From Meiothermus sp. (GTDB lineage Bacteria; Deinococcota; Deinococci; Deinococcales; Thermaceae): a DNA stretch of 64,000 nucleotides. Location of the stretch: positions 2,024,041 to 2,088,040 of the forward strand of contig NZ_BPIK01000001.1 in the NCBI RefSeq assembly GCF_026004075.1, given 5' to 3'. Shown here piece by piece: positions 12,337 to 55,955 of this stretch. The notes beneath the pieces were generated by a model, which searched no databases, was not told the DNA's origin, and saw only the letters and a list, made by a program, of their open reading frames with translations. Within the stretch, counting starts at the first letter, position 1. Each line of letters begins with the position of its first letter. The position numbers and the translations under genes were made by a program.

Positions 12337-14133
12337 ATGCGGCTCGAAGACCTACCCCCGCTCCCCGAAACGCCGGGCGTGTACCTCTGGAAAACCGGCG
12401 AGCGCATCGTTTATGTAGGCAAGGCCAAAAACCTCAAGGCCCGCGTGACCAGCTATTTCCACGCCGAGGGCAAGGGCCTGCGCATCTGCCAGGAGGCCAC
12501 CCACCTCGACTTTATCGTGGTGCGTGACGAGGTGGAGGCGCTTTTGCTCGAGGCCAACCTCATCAAGCACCACCGCCCCCCCTACAACATCCTGATGAAG
12601 GACGACAAGCACTACCCCTTCCTCAAGCTCACCCAGGAGGAGTGGCCCATGCTGATGGTGGTGCGCCGGGTGCAGGAAGATGGGGCCCGCTACTGGGGGC
12701 CCTTCCCCGATGCTTCGGCGGTGCGGCGCATCAAGCGCCTGGTGGATCGCTTCTTCCCCCTGCGCAAAAACTCCGGCTTCCCCTTCAAGAAAAGGCGCTA
12801 CCCCTGCCTGAACCACGCCATGGGCCGCTGCCTGGCGCCTTGCGTGGGCCAGGCCGACCCGGCGCAGTATCAGATGGCCGTGCGGCAGGTGGAAAATCTG
12901 CTGGATGGCAAAATTGAGGCCCTCTACGAGAGCCTCGAGCAGCAGATGCGCCAGGCGGCCAGAAACCAGGACTTCGAACGGGCCGCGGAAATCCGCGACC
13001 AGATCAGCGCGGTGCGCAGCTTTTTTGGTACCAGCCAGCAAGCCTACGACCCCGAGCTGGGCGACCTGGACTTCCTGGGCTTTGCCCGCGCAGGCGACTA
13101 TGCCCTCATTCAGCACTACCAGGTGCGCGGGGGCCAGATGCTGGGGCGCATCAGCCGCTTCGTGGAGGGGGTGAAGGAGGCCAGCGACGCCGAGTTGCTG
13201 GAAGCCTTCCTGCGCGACTACTACCTCGAGGCCACCCCCCTACCCCCATTGGTGCTGCTCCCTTTCGAACTGGAAGCGCAGGAGGCTTTCTCGGCTTTCC
13301 TGAGCTCCAAAGGGCGCAGGGTGGAAGTGCGCGTCCCCCAGCGCGGCGACAAAACCCGCCTGATCGAGCTGGCCCAGCACAACGCCCAGACCGCCTTGCA
13401 GACCGAACTCAAGCTACTGGAGCGCAAGGGCGACCACCCCGGCCTCAAGGGGCTGATGGAGGTGCTGGGGCTCACCCGCCGCCCCTACCGCATCGAGGGC
13501 TACGACATTTCCAACCTGCTGGGCGAAAGCGTGGTGGGTTCCATCACGGTCTTTGAAGGGGGCCGCCCCAAGAAGGCCGAGTACCGCCGCATCAAAATTA
13601 GGGGCCTGAAGGGCCAGCCCGACGACTTTTTCTCGATGGAGCAGACCATCCTCCGACGCTTCACCGGCAGCCTGGCCGAGCAGATGCCCATCCCCGACCT
13701 GATTCTGATTGACGGCGGACTGGGCCAGGTGCGGGCCGCGCAAAAAGCCCTGCAGCAGGCCGGGCTGGAGATTCCGCTGGTGGGGCTGGCCAAGCGTGAA
13801 GAAACCCTGGTTTTGCCCGACGGAAAAACCATCGCCCTACCACTGAGCCATCCTGCGCTGCAACTGCTCATCTACCAGCGCGACGAGACCCACCGCAACG
13901 GCCTCGAGTTCCACCGCAAGCTGCGCAGCCAGAAAGCCCTCAAGAGCATCTTCGACGATATAAAGGGCATTGGCCCGGCCCGCAAGCTGGCCCTGATGAA
14001 CCACTTCTCAACCCTGGAAGAACTCAAAGCCATGAGCGTGGAGGAGCTGGCCAAGCTGCCAGGCCTCGACAAGCGCAGCGCCCAGGCCGTGCTGAAGGCG
14101 CTGAGCAATCTGCCGATGGGAACCAAGGTATGA
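12337..14133 (+). CDS. uvrC: Excinuclease ABC subunit C
   Basis: 598 residues. UvrC makes both incisions around bulky DNA lesions after UvrA/UvrB loading. Domains in order: GIY-YIG nuclease (about 9-90, PGVYLWKTGERIVYVGKAKNLKARV), a Cys cluster (PCLNHAMGRCLAPC, about 158-171), the UVR UvrB-binding helix (FERAAEIRDQISAV, about 212-226), the RNase H-like 5' nuclease domain (about 380-530, GYDISNLLGE... LILIDGGLGQ), and tandem helix-hairpin-helix motifs (IKGIGPARKLAL, KLPGLDKRSAQAVL) at the C-terminus. All expected parts are present. The stop overlaps the next methyltransferase start by 4 nt, although that gene has a different base composition. Confidence 0.97.
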   Translation: MRLEDLPPLPETPGVYLWKTGERIVYVGKAKNLKARVTSYFHAEGKGLRICQEATHLDFIVVRDEVEALLLEANLIKHHRPPYNILMKDDKHYPFLKLTQEEWPMLMVVRRVQEDGARYWGPFPDASAVRRIKRLVDRFFPLRKNSGFPFKKRRYPCLNHAMGRCLAPCVGQADPAQYQMAVRQVENLLDGKIEALYESLEQQMRQAARNQDFERAAEIRDQISAVRSFFGTSQQAYDPELGDLDFLGFARAGDYALIQHYQVRGGQMLGRISRFVEGVKEASDAELLEAFLRDYYLEATPLPPLVLLPFELEAQEAFSAFLSSKGRRVEVRVPQRGDKTRLIELAQHNAQTALQTELKLLERKGDHPGLKGLMEVLGLTRRPYRIEGYDISNLLGESVVGSITVFEGGRPKKAEYRRIKIRGLKGQPDDFFSMEQTILRRFTGSLAEQMPIPDLILIDGGLGQVRAAQKALQQAGLEIPLVGLAKREETLVLPDGKTIALPLSHPALQLLIYQRDETHRNGLEFHRKLRSQKALKSIFDDIKGIGPARKLALMNHFSTLEELKAMSVEELAKLPGLDKRSAQAVLKALSNLPMGTKV

Positions 14134-15071
14134 TAAGTATGGCTATGACAGAACTGAGCATTAAGAGCAGGTTTGACTCAGAAGCATATGTGGTTATCTA
14201 TCCTGGCGACTGCGCAGAGTTGCTCAAACAAATCCCAGACGCCAGCATCTCTTTGGTGATCACCTCGCCGCCCTACAACATTGGTAAGCCCTACGAAAGC
14301 CGTAAAGCCTTGGATGCTTATCTGGCTTGGCAAGAAAGCATTGTCAAGGAATCTGTCCGCGTGCTCAAGCCAACCGGCAGTCTGGTGTGGCAGGTTGGGA
14401 ATTACGTGGACAACGGTGAAATCCTCCCGCTGGATATACTTCTTTTTCCTATCTTTACCAATTTGGGATTAAAGCTCCGCAATCGCATTGTATGGGCGTT
14501 TGAGCATGGTCTTCATGCAAAGCGTCGTTTTTCCGGACGCTACGAGGTGGCTTTGTGGTTCACCAAAACTGACGATTACACCTTTAATCTGGACAGTGTA
14601 CGGGTTCCACAAAAATATCCCAATAAAAAACATTTCAAGGGCCCCAAAAAGGGTGAACTCTCCGGCAATCCCCTGGGCAAAAATCCCGGTGACGTGTGGG
14701 TATTTCCTAATGTTAAGGCCAACCACGTAGAAAAAACCGACCACCCGGCACAGTACCCCGTGGAGCTGGTGGAGCGTTTTGTCCTGGCCCTGACGGAAGA
14801 AGACGACTGGGTTTTGGATCCGTTCGGCGGATCGGGAACCACCCTCATCGCTGCTTTAATGCACAGAAGGCGGGGGGCCATGGCCGAAATAATCCCCGAT
14901 TACGTTGAAATTGCCCAGCAGCGCCTTCGTGAAGCCTGGGAAGGCCGTCTGCGGGTGAGGCCCATGGAGCGCGAAGTGTATGACCCTTCCGGTAAAGGCA
15001 CTTACATTCCCCCTCGTGCCGTTGATCTGCAAGCCATCTGGAACCCCCCCTTACTGGTAGAACCCAAATGA
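14130..15071 (+). CDS. Site-specific DNA methyltransferase, probable N4-cytosine type (BstYI/BglII-like system)
   Basis: 313 residues. Motif IV is TSPPYNIG (SPPY at 46-49), and SPPY rather than D/NPPY favours N4-cytosine methylation. Motif I DPFGGSGTT (FGGSG 232-236) comes after it, giving the beta-class domain order. The target-recognition part lies between (about 130-210). It should protect sites cut by the endonuclease encoded immediately downstream (4-nt overlap). Coding GC is visibly lower than uvrC and hom on either side, which suggests horizontal acquisition. ATGs at codons 1, 4 and 6 are all possible starts; the first overlaps the uvrC stop. Confidence 0.88.
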   Translation: MISMAMTELSIKSRFDSEAYVVIYPGDCAELLKQIPDASISLVITSPPYNIGKPYESRKALDAYLAWQESIVKESVRVLKPTGSLVWQVGNYVDNGEILPLDILLFPIFTNLGLKLRNRIVWAFEHGLHAKRRFSGRYEVALWFTKTDDYTFNLDSVRVPQKYPNKKHFKGPKKGELSGNPLGKNPGDVWVFPNVKANHVEKTDHPAQYPVELVERFVLALTEEDDWVLDPFGGSGTTLIAALMHRRRGAMAEIIPDYVEIAQQRLREAWEGRLRVRPMEREVYDPSGKGTYIPPRAVDLQAIWNPPLLVEPK

Positions 15072-15616
15072 GAATCGTCTACGAGTACTCCCATTTAGGC
15101 GGTCGAGAGATTCTCCAGGTGCGTTTTCCAATAGTGCTGGAAGAAATCTATGCCGTTATCAAAGAGGTAAGTGCTGTTCGGGGCAAAAAAAGTAAAGAAA
15201 AAACCAAACTAGGTAAAGAACTCTACGCACCCAAAATCATAAACCAGCGCCTGAAGGAGGCTTTCCACAAGCGAGGTTTCCACGAACTCAGGGACTACTA
15301 CGAGATTCGGCTGCCGGGCCAGGAGGAGCCGGTGGTTCGCGGAGCCTACAAGCAGATAGATTTCTTCAAAGAACGGGTTCTCGTCGAGGCTCAGTTTGGG
15401 AAATACGCATTTATGTTCTACGACATGGCTAAGTTTCAGTACTTCTTCAACGAGACCAGGGCCGATGTGGGCGTCGAAATTGTACCAGCCTATGCGCTGC
15501 ACAAGGAAATGTCCTCGGGCGTGGCTTACGGTGAGCAGCTCATCTACGATATCGAGCGGCTAAAACGACACTTTCCCGCCGTACCCGTTCACATCATTCT
15601 GATTGATGCGGACTGA
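15068..15616 (+). CDS. Type II restriction endonuclease, BstYI/BglII family
   Basis: 182 residues. The N-terminus (MRIVYEYSHL..E.LQV) and the KSKEKTK, FGKYAF, DVGVEI and KEMSSG segments match what I recall of BstYI (203 residues, R^GATCY). The catalytic pattern D98-x8-E107-x-Q109 (IDFFKERVLVEAQF) is the unusual D...ExQ centre of BglII and BstYI rather than ExK. It cuts unmethylated DNA, most likely at a GATC-centred site such as RGATCY or AGATCT; specificity is inferred from family, not visible directly. Overlap with the methyltransferase stop indicates co-transcription. The protein is somewhat shorter than BstYI but the core is complete. Confidence 0.88.
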   Translation: MRIVYEYSHLGGREILQVRFPIVLEEIYAVIKEVSAVRGKKSKEKTKLGKELYAPKIINQRLKEAFHKRGFHELRDYYEIRLPGQEEPVVRGAYKQIDFFKERVLVEAQFGKYAFMFYDMAKFQYFFNETRADVGVEIVPAYALHKEMSSGVAYGEQLIYDIERLKRHFPAVPVHIILIDAD

Positions 15617-25181: not shown

Positions 25182-25703
25182 TTAGAGCCGCTCGAGCCAG
25201 CCCATCACCTGCCCTGGAGGCTTCACCGGCCATGCGCCCTGCCGCATGTGCTGCTCAACCTGCTGCACCGCCCGCAGGGCCTGCTCCACCCATTCAGCCG
25301 GGTAAAGCGGGGCTTTGGCCGCGAACTCCTCGAGGTCGAAGGTCTGGCAGGTGTGGTCGGCCTTGCACTTGACATCTATTTCCAGGTCGTACTGCCAGAT
25401 GCGATCGGGCTCGAAGCGCGGGGGGGTCTGGATGTTCCAGTAGTACTCGAGCACCCTTCCCTCCGCATCCAGGTCGGGGCCGCCCGAGTACCAACGGCCC
25501 ACAAAAAAGGCGACGTAGGCCTGGTGGTTCACCCGCAGCACCCGCTGCTTGCTCTCGTGGTGAAACTCAAAGCCCAGCGGCATGTGCACCAGCACCGCGC
25601 CCTCGCGCGTTTCGTGAACCTGGGCTTCCCACCAGTAGTGCAGGGTGTGGGCCGGGTATTTCCAGAATTCGATGCGCACAACCTGTCCAATCGCGTAGTT
25701 CAT
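25182..25703 (-). CDS. DUF402 family protein (FomD-like/nucleotide phosphatase fold)
   Basis: 173 residues, soluble. The DUF402 hallmarks are visible: VEFWKYP/HYWWEAQVHE near the N-terminus, FFVGRWYS, and the acidic core 'EYYWNIQTPPRFEPDRIWQYDLEIDVK' (about 88-115), where the conserved Tyr, Asp and Glu would bind metal. Some members are nucleoside di/triphosphatases and FomD hydrolyses a cytidylylated phosphonate; which reaction applies here is not clear. aspC lies 43 nt downstream but has its own promoter. Confidence 0.75.
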   Translation of the reverse strand: MNYAIGQVVRIEFWKYPAHTLHYWWEAQVHETREGAVLVHMPLGFEFHHESKQRVLRVNHQAYVAFFVGRWYSGGPDLDAEGRVLEYYWNIQTPPRFEPDRIWQYDLEIDVKCKADHTCQTFDLEEFAAKAPLYPAEWVEQALRAVQQVEQHMRQGAWPVKPPGQVMGWLERL

Positions 25704-25710
25704 TCTTTGA

Positions 25711-25905
25711 TCTGCCCCCTACAACGCCAGCTTAGAAGCCTACGTGCTGGTATCTTACGACCGCAGGCTGGTGCAAACCCACCGGCGGCTTGCGGATGGA
25801 ACCTGGCGTTACGAAACCCCAGAGAAAAGCGGGGCGCTCGAGCGCCCCTGCCTGGATACAAAACTGAGTTTAGACGAAATCTACGCCGACACAGACTTGG
25901 CCTAG
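25711..25905 (+). pseudogene. C-terminal remnant of a Uma2-family endonuclease gene
   Basis: The frame from 25711 to the TAG at 25903-25905 translates to a C-terminal piece containing ASLEAYVLVSYD, VQTHRRLADGTWRYE and LSLDEIYADTDL. This is the characteristic tail of Uma2 (DUF820) proteins. It has no start codon or N-terminal half; a TGA precedes it at 25708. An intact Uma2 gene of different tail sequence lies 2 kb away at 27500-28024. Confidence 0.7.
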
Positions 25906-25970
25906 GTGAGGCCAAACAATGCAGTCACTCTAAAACGCAACCCTGCGCTCTACTTGGCTCCTTGGTGGCG

Positions 25971-26025
25971 ATACAGACTCCGCTTGAATCCTTCTAGGTG
26001 TAATCAAAGTGGGGAATTCGGGCCG
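25971..26025. repeat. Hairpin repeat family 1, decayed copy C
   Basis: ATAC....CTCCGCTTGAATCCTTC (about 25971-25994) then GGTGTAATCAAAG (25997-26009) and GGGAATTCGGGCC. It matches copy B at 55882 in order and wording but the stem is eroded. It lies between the Uma2 remnant and the AT-rich nuclease gene. Confidence 0.6.
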
Positions 26026-26131
26026 GCCCTGGGCTGGCGAAAATGAGCTGGTAGTGCGGCGGGGGACGCAATACATCCACAGGTAGGTGCACAAAGGTTT
26101 TGAACACACTTTACCTCGCCCATCCCATACT

Positions 26132-27394
26132 ATGAAAGAAATGCAACTCAATCCATCAACTGGCCTACACAATCAACTCAAGGGCGTAGGAGGCAAAAAG
26201 CTAGAAGTGCTTGCCTCGGCTGTTTTCGCTTCGATTGGCTACGGTGTTTTCCGAAACTTGATTATCGAGTTTGGAGGAAAACAAGCAGCAGAAATAGACA
26301 TATATGCGTCTCTTTTCACCCCTTTTCGAGAAACCAAAACAATAGTTGACTGCAAGGGTGGAGATCCCACACCAAAGGAACTCCGTGAGTTTGCTTCGCT
26401 TAGTGTCTTAATTGACGAACCACCAGACTCACTGCTTTTCATCTGCAAACACGACCAGCCTGACGCAACGGTGGCACTTGCAAAACGTTTGAACGTTGAA
26501 CTACTTGAAAGGGTAAACCTGACCTACATAGCACTCCCCATTCTTCAATCTGAAGGTTCCTCAACAAAGAAGGAGAGAATCAGGAAACTCAATACCTACA
26601 TAGCTTGGCAAGTCATTTACGATTACCTTCTAACTTATACCTCAAAGCAACCACTCCTGAGGTCTTACCGCAGGTTCTTGCTGACATGCTTGTGGATGCC
26701 AAGAGAGCCTATTGATCAGGTCAAGAAATCCTTCGATGCCCATCAAAATAAATTCAAAGATGTTACGCAGCGCATAGCAAAGCTGCATGCTACTTCTGCA
26801 AACAAGGCTGTAATCTATGCAAGCAACGATGAGATAGAGTCTGCTATGCTTTTGGAACTCATTCATAGAGTGCTGAACATATATGCCATTTGTCGTTTGA
26901 CAATCAGGTGTGTCAATAAACACAGCCCTGAATATTTGCTGAATGAGGAGAGGATCTTGCCTAAAGTGCGGCAAACCATTGCATCGCTTTCCTTGCATCC
27001 CTTGTATTTCGGCAGATTTGTACCATTCATTCAAAACTTTCTGTTTAGATGGGGAGGATTTATTTACGTTCCTGAGGAACAGTTCGAGCTGGAACACATG
27101 AGCAACGATGTTGGAGTTCCAGTTAACATAGGGCAACTGTTCCTTGACACTATCGACAATTTGTTCAATAGTGGCCGATCATTGTTTATTACTAAAAATA
27201 CCAATGCACCCTCTGTTAAATTTTTCGCTTATGTTCCAGGGGCTTTCCGGGGGCTAGGCATTCTGCACCGTAAGGCTCTAAATAGTTCTAGATACTCGAG
27301 TGCAAGCTTTTTCAAACACGAAAATAACTATATTAATGCCCTAGATCGTGCTTTAAGTACTGAGATAGGCAGCCATAAGAACTTAGTGATCTAG
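26132..27394 (+). CDS. Mrr-like restriction endonuclease-fold protein, AT-rich
   Basis: 420 residues from ATG 26132. The N-terminal ~110 residues fit the Mrr PD-(D/E)xK layout: a helix with LEVLASAVFASIGY, then E54-I-D56 (AAEIDIYA), then D73-C-K75 (TIVDCKGGD), then 'SLLFICKHDQPDATVALAKRLNVELLER', the usual distal helix-strand of Mrr domains. The remaining 300 residues are helical and unfamiliar. Coding GC is clearly lower than all neighbours and codon choice is unlike them, indicating recent transfer. There is no methyltransferase beside it, so it may be a type IV-like (modification-dependent) or solitary defence nuclease. It is flanked by repeat copy C and Uma2 genes. Confidence 0.6.
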   Translation: MKEMQLNPSTGLHNQLKGVGGKKLEVLASAVFASIGYGVFRNLIIEFGGKQAAEIDIYASLFTPFRETKTIVDCKGGDPTPKELREFASLSVLIDEPPDSLLFICKHDQPDATVALAKRLNVELLERVNLTYIALPILQSEGSSTKKERIRKLNTYIAWQVIYDYLLTYTSKQPLLRSYRRFLLTCLWMPREPIDQVKKSFDAHQNKFKDVTQRIAKLHATSANKAVIYASNDEIESAMLLELIHRVLNIYAICRLTIRCVNKHSPEYLLNEERILPKVRQTIASLSLHPLYFGRFVPFIQNFLFRWGGFIYVPEEQFELEHMSNDVGVPVNIGQLFLDTIDNLFNSGRSLFITKNTNAPSVKFFAYVPGAFRGLGILHRKALNSSRYSSASFFKHENNYINALDRALSTEIGSHKNLVI

Positions 27395-27499
27395 GCTCTT
27401 AATTGCAAGAGTCAAGTGCGCGCTCTCGAAGCCTAGCGCGCTTTGCAGCTACTCCCTCAAGCTGAGCAAGAACCAGTAGCCCTCAGACACCTGTGACTC

Positions 27500-28024
27500 C
27501 TACAACCACCACTCGAGCCCGTCCCCCCCGATCGCGATCGGTGCAACCGCCGTGCCCTTCTCGAAGTAAAGGGGCTGATAACCCGGGGCGCGGTAGACTT
27601 CCAGTTTCTCTTCCAGCAGGTTCACAATCCATACCTCAGGAATGCCCGCCTGGGCATACAGTGGCACCTTCAGGCTGCGGTCTTGGGCGAGGGTGGTATC
27701 GCTCACCTCGATCACCAGTAGCACGTCTTGTGGGTAGGGGTCGCGGTCTTTGTAGGTAGAAAGGGGCGGCTTCAAAAGCATCAGATCGGGCTCGGGCTCG
27801 GATTCGGGCGCAATGATCAGCGAGCACTGCGGCATCACCACAACACGCTCGGAAAAGGTTTTGACCAGCATCTGGGTGAGTGCTGTGACGCAATAGCGAT
27901 GACGATAGCCCATTGGCGACATGTGATAAACCTCACCATTCAACAGCTCCACCCGGCCCTGCCCCAAAGCGCCTGCAGCATAGGCTTTGTGGTAATCCTC
28001 GACGGTGAAACGGTGCTTCACCAT
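27500..28024 (-). CDS. Uma2 family endonuclease-fold protein (DUF820)
   Basis: 174 residues. Clear Uma2 features: FTVEDYHKAYAAGAL, 'GRVELLNGEVYHMSPMG' (E in the first strand), PEPDLMLLKPP (the PD), VLLVIEVSDTTLAQDRSLKVPLYAQAGIPEVWIVNL (E-V as the ExK-like element) and a VYRAPG tail. These proteins carry a PD-(D/E)xK fold; many copies occur per genome in cyanobacteria and Thermaceae and their role is unsettled. The start is supported by TATACT ending 6 nt before the ATG (28031-28036). Confidence 0.85.
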   Translation of the reverse strand: MVKHRFTVEDYHKAYAAGALGQGRVELLNGEVYHMSPMGYRHRYCVTALTQMLVKTFSERVVVMPQCSLIIAPESEPEPDLMLLKPPLSTYKDRDPYPQDVLLVIEVSDTTLAQDRSLKVPLYAQAGIPEVWIVNLLEEKLEVYRAPGYQPLYFEKGTAVAPIAIGGDGLEWWL

Positions 28025-28056
28025 GGCTCGAGTATAGCAAGCGTAATCGAGGCACT

Positions 28057-28110
28057 TTGATTTTTGAGGTGCCTCGAGCTAAACTAGCAAAAACTAACGA
28101 GCGTTAGTTT
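28057..28110 (+). promoter_or_regulatory. paa promoter with PaaR operator
   Basis: TTGATT (28057-28062) and TAAACT (28080-28085) are 17 nt apart. AAACTAACG (28091-28099) and CGTTAGTTT (28102-28110) form a perfect palindrome over the predicted transcription start. Its core CTAACGAGCGTTAG (28094-28107) fits the CNAACGNNCGTTNG consensus published for the TetR-family PaaR of Thermus thermophilus, which is released by phenylacetyl-CoA. A GGAGGAG Shine-Dalgarno follows. Confidence 0.85.
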
Positions 28111-55869: not shown

Positions 55870-55881
55870 TGTGCTAAACTG

Positions 55882-55955
55882 ATACCGGTTCCGCTTGAAC
55901 CCTTCACCTTTGGGTGTAATCAAAGGTGAGGGGTTCAAGCCGACCGAAGGGAGTA
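55882..55955. repeat. Hairpin repeat family 1, copy B
   Basis: GCTTGAACCC-T-TCACCTTTG (55893-55912) pairs with CAAAGGTGA-G-GGGTTCAAGC (55921-55940) around GGTGTAAT, with one T/G. The flanks ATACCG and CCGACCGAAGGGAGTAG equal copy A. The T-to-C change in the left arm relative to copy A is matched by A-to-G in the right arm. Confidence 0.8.

Follow-up and report, generated by a model that had tools for sequence, protein, structure and literature searches.

We describe a recently acquired 1.26-kb gene that probably makes up a previously undescribed defence system on its own. It lies in a 64,000-nucleotide stretch of a Meiothermus sp. genome (hereafter the window; positions 2024041-2088040 of the first contig, in a genome of 3.25 Mb) and encodes a 420-residue protein, the N-terminal ~140 residues of which are predicted, from conserved residues and a modelled homologue, to be a PD-(D/E)XK nuclease. 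The gene stands alone, it is mobile, its product has two domains, it is under purifying selection and its relatives are found among defence genes; it is therefore best read as a one-gene defence.

An insertion at a variable site

The putative nuclease gene (26132-27394, + strand) was delineated from its open reading frame, its composition and family searches. An alternative in-frame GTG located upstream, at 26087, would yield a protein of 435 residues. The GC content of the gene is 42.9% (0.49/0.36/0.44 by codon position), and its GC3 of 0.44 compares with 0.57-0.91 in the remaining long genes of the window; the AT-rich 420-residue protein among GC-rich genes that a sequence-only reading of this DNA had described is thus confirmed. 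Promoter and terminator scans returned scores not above those of shuffled sequence.

The gene order is: a DUF402-family gene (25182-25703, - strand), a 61-codon Uma2 remnant, the 420-codon nuclease gene, an intact Uma2 gene and the phenylacetate operon, which starts with PaaA (from 28116, + strand; PaaA_PaaC and PaaB profile matches). The DUF402 gene is present in 17 of the 18 genomes of the genus and served as left anchor for comparing the site. Both Uma2 genes are as previously read. The remnant (25720-25905, + strand) is 60% identical over 58 residues (E 6e-24) to the C-terminus of a 187-residue Uma2 of relative G013 (L060), which is full length, on the + strand and at the position of the remnant; no alignment of the remnant to the neighbouring intact Uma2 was obtained. 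The intact gene (27500-28024, - strand; 174 residues) matches PF05685 at 8.4e-31 and occurs in relatives that have no nuclease gene.

Comparison with these relatives delimits the insertion. In the nearest one, G012 (L055), only 57 nucleotides separate the counterparts of window positions 25886 and 27499, the Uma2 remnant runs nearly straight into the intact Uma2 gene, and the nuclease gene is absent. The segment missing there, 25904-27498 (ends known to within about 50 nucleotides on either side), measures ~1.6 kb and lies between the 3' ends of the truncated and intact Uma2 genes. In G008, the intact Uma2 gene is present alone, the DUF402 gene being 5 nucleotides from the stretch that contains it, while G016 and G010 have neither the remnant, nor the nuclease gene, nor the intact Uma2. 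Together with G013, these states of the site indicate that the Uma2 genes were in place before the insertion and are incidental neighbours of the nuclease: both belong to the older background of a site that varies, to which no more than ~25904-27498 has been added. An ancestral unit of three genes is refuted by the empty site in G012, and the "island with Uma2" of the earlier reading is not supported. That the locus is accessory or foreign, as also proposed, is upheld by the same empty site, by the presence of the gene in only one of 111 Deinococcota genomes and by its deviant GC3. No transposase, integrase or clear target-site duplication was seen in the insert.

The whole stretch between DUF402 and paaA (25703-28104) varies within the genus, where, in relatives including G013, G002 and G015 (L060, L061 and L063), the site may be empty, hold Uma2 only, hold a Uma2 pair or, in three relatives, hold a ~155-residue lipoprotein-like gene. 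A dispersed palindromic intergenic repeat of ~60 nucleotides, GGTTCCGCTTGAACCCTTCACC...GGTGAGGGGTTCAAGCCGACC, occurs in the genome in good and decayed copies. One of the latter lies in the left part of the insert (25970-26028, + strand), where a decayed repeat had been noted and is now seen to be a degraded copy of this palindrome; other copies are located at 55881-55945 of the window and at G000:C1:615386-615450. A CRISPR-repeat reading was ruled out, the palindrome being dispersed and in no array.

A rare family scattered over mobile and chromosomal DNA

The window protein has no match in Pfam, NCBIfam or PHROGs, and its family is without any Pfam, NCBIfam or PADLOC-DB model. Paper searches found no description of it, and the plasmid records that list members call them "hypothetical protein". 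Relatives were obtained by several routes. A tblastn search of plasmids with the window protein hit two Streptomyces plasmids, at a query coverage of 37-41%; a Gordonia plasmid match (1e-4) runs from the last part of paaE into the first part of paaK and was treated as chance. When a Streptomyces member served as query, four full-length plasmid records were found. Alignment-based scans added a phage contig (L005/L029), members in eight Streptomyces genomes and one in a probably mislabelled actinobacterial genome (L011), and genome searches added a divergent actinobacterial member (L024/G291), an intact Streptomyces member (G989) and one fragment. The phage contig was recovered twice by viral scans with alignments; viral scans with single proteins as query found nothing, and neither did tblastn of the Phages collection (50,697 records) with the window protein or with L024. 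L011 (WNZI01000006.1) is titled "Vibrio cholerae strain 35D". Its contig is GC-rich with genes of actinobacterial type, and it shares its phylum sample with a Streptomyces genome. The record is probably a mislabelled actinobacterial isolate, and we did not count it as a Vibrio member.

Intact members are 430-461 residues long, align end to end and share 20-26% identity with the window protein (22% for L011). The family is sparsely distributed: the other 110 Deinococcota genomes are without it, two of 396 genomes in the sample of G113's phylum carry it (G113 being one of the two), G113 is alone among 376 genomes of its order, and four of 198 genomes in G114's order are carriers. Because the genome collections were sampled and pattern scans depend on short conserved stretches, members at a greater distance have probably escaped detection. 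The dN/dS ratio is ~0.2 (0.12-0.31 among Streptomyces copies), which indicates purifying selection, and broken or partial copies also occur (L007, L014, L072). Such a combination would fit the pattern of fast-turnover defence genes.

No neighbour is common to all family loci; the gene stands alone and is often oriented against the genes around it. On the phage contig, it is the only + strand gene within a - strand replication operon. Some Streptomyces copies are close to the ends of linear replicons, several are near a long helicase-type gene and one is near a Ku gene. The neighbours that can be identified are often defence genes: Lamassu LmuA and LmuB immediately upstream in L009 (1e-54 and 3e-116), a Schlafen AlbA_2 gene in L013, an ABC-three-component (ABC-3C) system in L006, and, in L011, a GmrSD/NsnA-type gene, an FRG-domain candidate (PDC-S15) and a cytosine methylase. 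This setting is suggestive of a defence role, an argument tempered by the abundance of accessory genes at Streptomyces chromosome ends in general. The C-5 cytosine methylase of L011 (9073-10299, - strand), which adjoins the FRG and GmrSD-type genes, consists of two same-frame open reading frames split by one stop codon. Beside the family member of G291, an open reading frame at L024:2828-3787 has an IEVK nuclease-like motif, no Pfam match and an IS3-type transposase gene after it; it is possibly another undescribed defence gene.

The two domains of the protein

The predicted PD-(D/E)XK domain spans approximately residues 15-140 (26174-26551, + strand), as judged from alignments, the fold of L011 and weak sequence matches. 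Its putative active site, derived from the alignments, comprises E25 (26204-26206), located in the first helix, followed by an ExD motif, E54 (26291-26293) and D56 (26297-26299), and by a (D/E)xK motif, D73 (26348-26350) and K75 (26354-26356). E25, E54, D56 and K75 are invariant in the aligned full-length members, and residue 73 is D or E. The core of ExD and DCK (D73-C74-K75) that had been read from the sequence is indeed present in the window protein. Can2 depends on its ExD pair, E276/D278, mutation of which abolishes activity (PMC7969007).

The AlphaFold model of the window protein is poor (pLDDT 39.6). That of the 22%-identical L011 has an alpha-beta-beta-beta-alpha-beta core (H15-29 E33-36 E51-56 E61-69 H75-88 E92-97 H103-112 E115-119), with pLDDT of 60-82 in most blocks of residues 15-135. 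Together with the conserved acidic and lysine positions, it supports the nuclease with a restriction fold that the sequence-only reading had expected, and metal-dependent nuclease activity would follow from this resemblance. Among PDB structures, the closest neighbours of the L011 domain are Can2 (8bao, Z 12.5 over 127 residues at 3.0 Å), VC1899 (1xmx, 11.1) and Can2 (7bdv, 10.8); AF1548, Cdn1 (9.7), FokI and Card1 (8.8) are further ones, the REase-fold neighbours being at Z 8-12.5. Can2/Card1-type structures take ranks 1, 2, 3, 5 and 8 in VIA-align, while Foldseek, run with the L011 model, places Cap4 first by E-value (~2e-3). The sole PADLOC match of the window protein, a weak one (E 0.017), is to a PD_DExK model described as "fused to CARF, 1XMX". 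This match and the structural neighbours of L011 are independent lines leading to one nuclease family. A profile search of solved structures yielded nothing (best 0.73).

The C-terminal domain (approximately residues 141-420; 26552-27391, + strand) is mostly helical, a description based on alignments and on the models of the window protein and of L011, in which pLDDT is mostly below 50-55. Alignments show both halves of the protein to be conserved between the window protein and the actinobacterial members. An alignment of ten members, one row of which is without the N-terminal part, has 35 invariant columns, almost all of them in the C-terminal half, and two motifs stand out there: F-x-Q-x-F-L-x-x-[WF]-G-G-F (residues 299-310) and G-[VIL]-P (328-330). 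This conservation indicates a function under selection. By sequence, no known domain was found in the C-terminal part with Pfam or PADLOC, no CARF domain with Pfam, NCBIfam or PADLOC, and no SAVED or other known C-terminal domain. The earlier statement that this part resembles nothing nameable stands in so far as no profile matches it, but it does have relatives, all uncharacterised, and measures ~280 residues. With the domain modelled at low pLDDT and the structural match lists spanning residues 5-148 of L011, there is no evidence for a new fold.

Function and relation to known systems

We propose that the gene, acquired horizontally, encodes a stand-alone defence nuclease held off by its own C-terminal sensor, i.e. 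a triggered effector, a reading which we regard as evenly poised. The N-terminal domain, by its predicted fold, would be a metal-dependent, DNA- or RNA-cutting nuclease of the Can2/Card1/Cap4-effector kind, and the ~280-residue helical domain would be the sensor or recognition module that keeps it off, a role guessed from the architecture. The trigger might be a signal, or a nucleic acid, that comes from a phage or a plasmid. Given that no neighbour is conserved, the nuclease probably works without a partner gene, and neither a cyclase nor a CRISPR partner was seen for it. The gene would spread via plasmids, chromosome-end regions and phages, and would probably protect its carrier replicon or cell from competing phages. 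Should it protect against phages, a compact defence gene that needs no partner would join those known, and the C-terminal domain would constitute a new module for sensing a trigger. Members come from a probable thermophile as well as from mesophiles, so a heat-stable version may be at hand for biochemistry.

The main rival, possible but doubtful in our view, is type IV (modification-dependent) restriction, in which the C-terminal domain would read a modified base and the N-terminal domain would cut directly. Most predictions are common to this and the triggered effector; what differs is the trigger. Modification-dependent restriction is known in Streptomyces and this counts for the rival, as do the solitary REase-fold gene with no methylase beside it, the rank of Mrr_cat as top Pfam model in two homologues (16.5 and 12.7 bits, both below cut-off), and MspJI and AspBHI among the structural neighbours. 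Separate binding and cleavage domains are moreover usual in this class (PMC3874153). However, the nuclease domain is nearer to Can2/VC1899/Card1 than to MspJI (Z 12.5 versus 6.8), and no known modified-base reader was found by sequence. The host also has an N6/N4 methylase of its own 10.5 kb away, the mark of which, at least, has to be tolerated. This methylase (14130-15068; PADLOC 1.2e-110; M.RsrI 1.8e-38; GC3 low, at 0.57) is followed by a BstYI-related endonuclease (6.1e-36) in a type II restriction-modification pair (14130-15613, + strand) absent from the earlier reading, which had the nuclease lacking a methylase: none is adjacent, as the flanks hold DUF402, Uma2 and paa genes, but one is present in the window. 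Since the pair forms a complete unit at a distance of 10.5 kb, it is not joined to the nuclease. Its presence does mean that host DNA is probably methylated, and the nuclease would have to tolerate this mark.

It is improbable that the protein is a mobile-element competition factor without sensing, damaging rival replicons or aiding its own retention in a toxin- or homing-like manner. A lone gene on linear plasmids and in a phage would suit such a factor, but no self-splicing element was seen, the insertion is not inside a conserved gene, and the 420-residue two-domain protein is under purifying selection in chromosomes too. A nucleic-acid repair or maintenance nuclease (EndoMS/NucS- or helicase-associated) that is incidentally mobile seems very unlikely: EndoMS and Bax1 are among the structural neighbours of the domain and the helicase-type and Ku genes near Streptomyces copies point the same way, but the very patchy distribution, the foreign base composition and the want of a single conserved partner argue against it. 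That the Uma2 pair and the nuclease form one functional accessory island is scarcely credible, for although the three genes are adjacent and all encode predicted REase-fold proteins, relatives carry both Uma2 genes or the intact one without the nuclease, or none of the three.

How, then, does the proposed triggered effector compare with known systems? Uma2 (PF05685), its incidental neighbour, belongs to the same PD-(D/E)XK superfamily, but is a separate family with one domain only. Mrr, MspJI and AspBHI resemble it in having a REase fold, a lone gene and a separate second domain, but here no SRA-like reader was found. "Mrr-like", the term first applied, holds at superfamily level and no further: the window protein has no match to Mrr_cat (PF04471), the best homologue scores 16.5 bits against a cut-off of 21 and all scanned members are below it, and the nearest structures are Can2/VC1899/Card1. 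The domain order is also reversed, for Mrr has an N-terminal winged helix and a C-terminal nuclease (PMC3874153), whereas here the nuclease starts at about residue 15 and 280 residues follow. Cap4 and LmuA, of CBASS and Lamassu, do share the order of an N-terminal PD-(D/E)XK domain and a C-terminal regulatory domain; Cap4 fills the top Foldseek rows and LmuA scores Z 7.3. However, no SAVED or CTD7 domain and no cyclase or SMC partner were found here, whole-chain TM-scores are ~0.2, and a scan of six members with Cap4_nuclease (PF14130) returned nothing at E <= 10. Can2, Card1 and VC1899 (DUF1887, the CARF-nucleases of type III CRISPR) are alike in nuclease fold, ExD motif and defence setting, and theirs is the one nuclease family matched in PADLOC. 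They differ in that their nuclease is C-terminal and ours N-terminal, in second domains unrelated by sequence, and in that no CARF domain or type III CRISPR partner was seen here. Tentatively, the protein may be a Can2/Card1-type nuclease that has exchanged its cyclic-nucleotide sensor for a new helical domain able to recognise infection directly, and would as such represent an undescribed class of single-gene defence.
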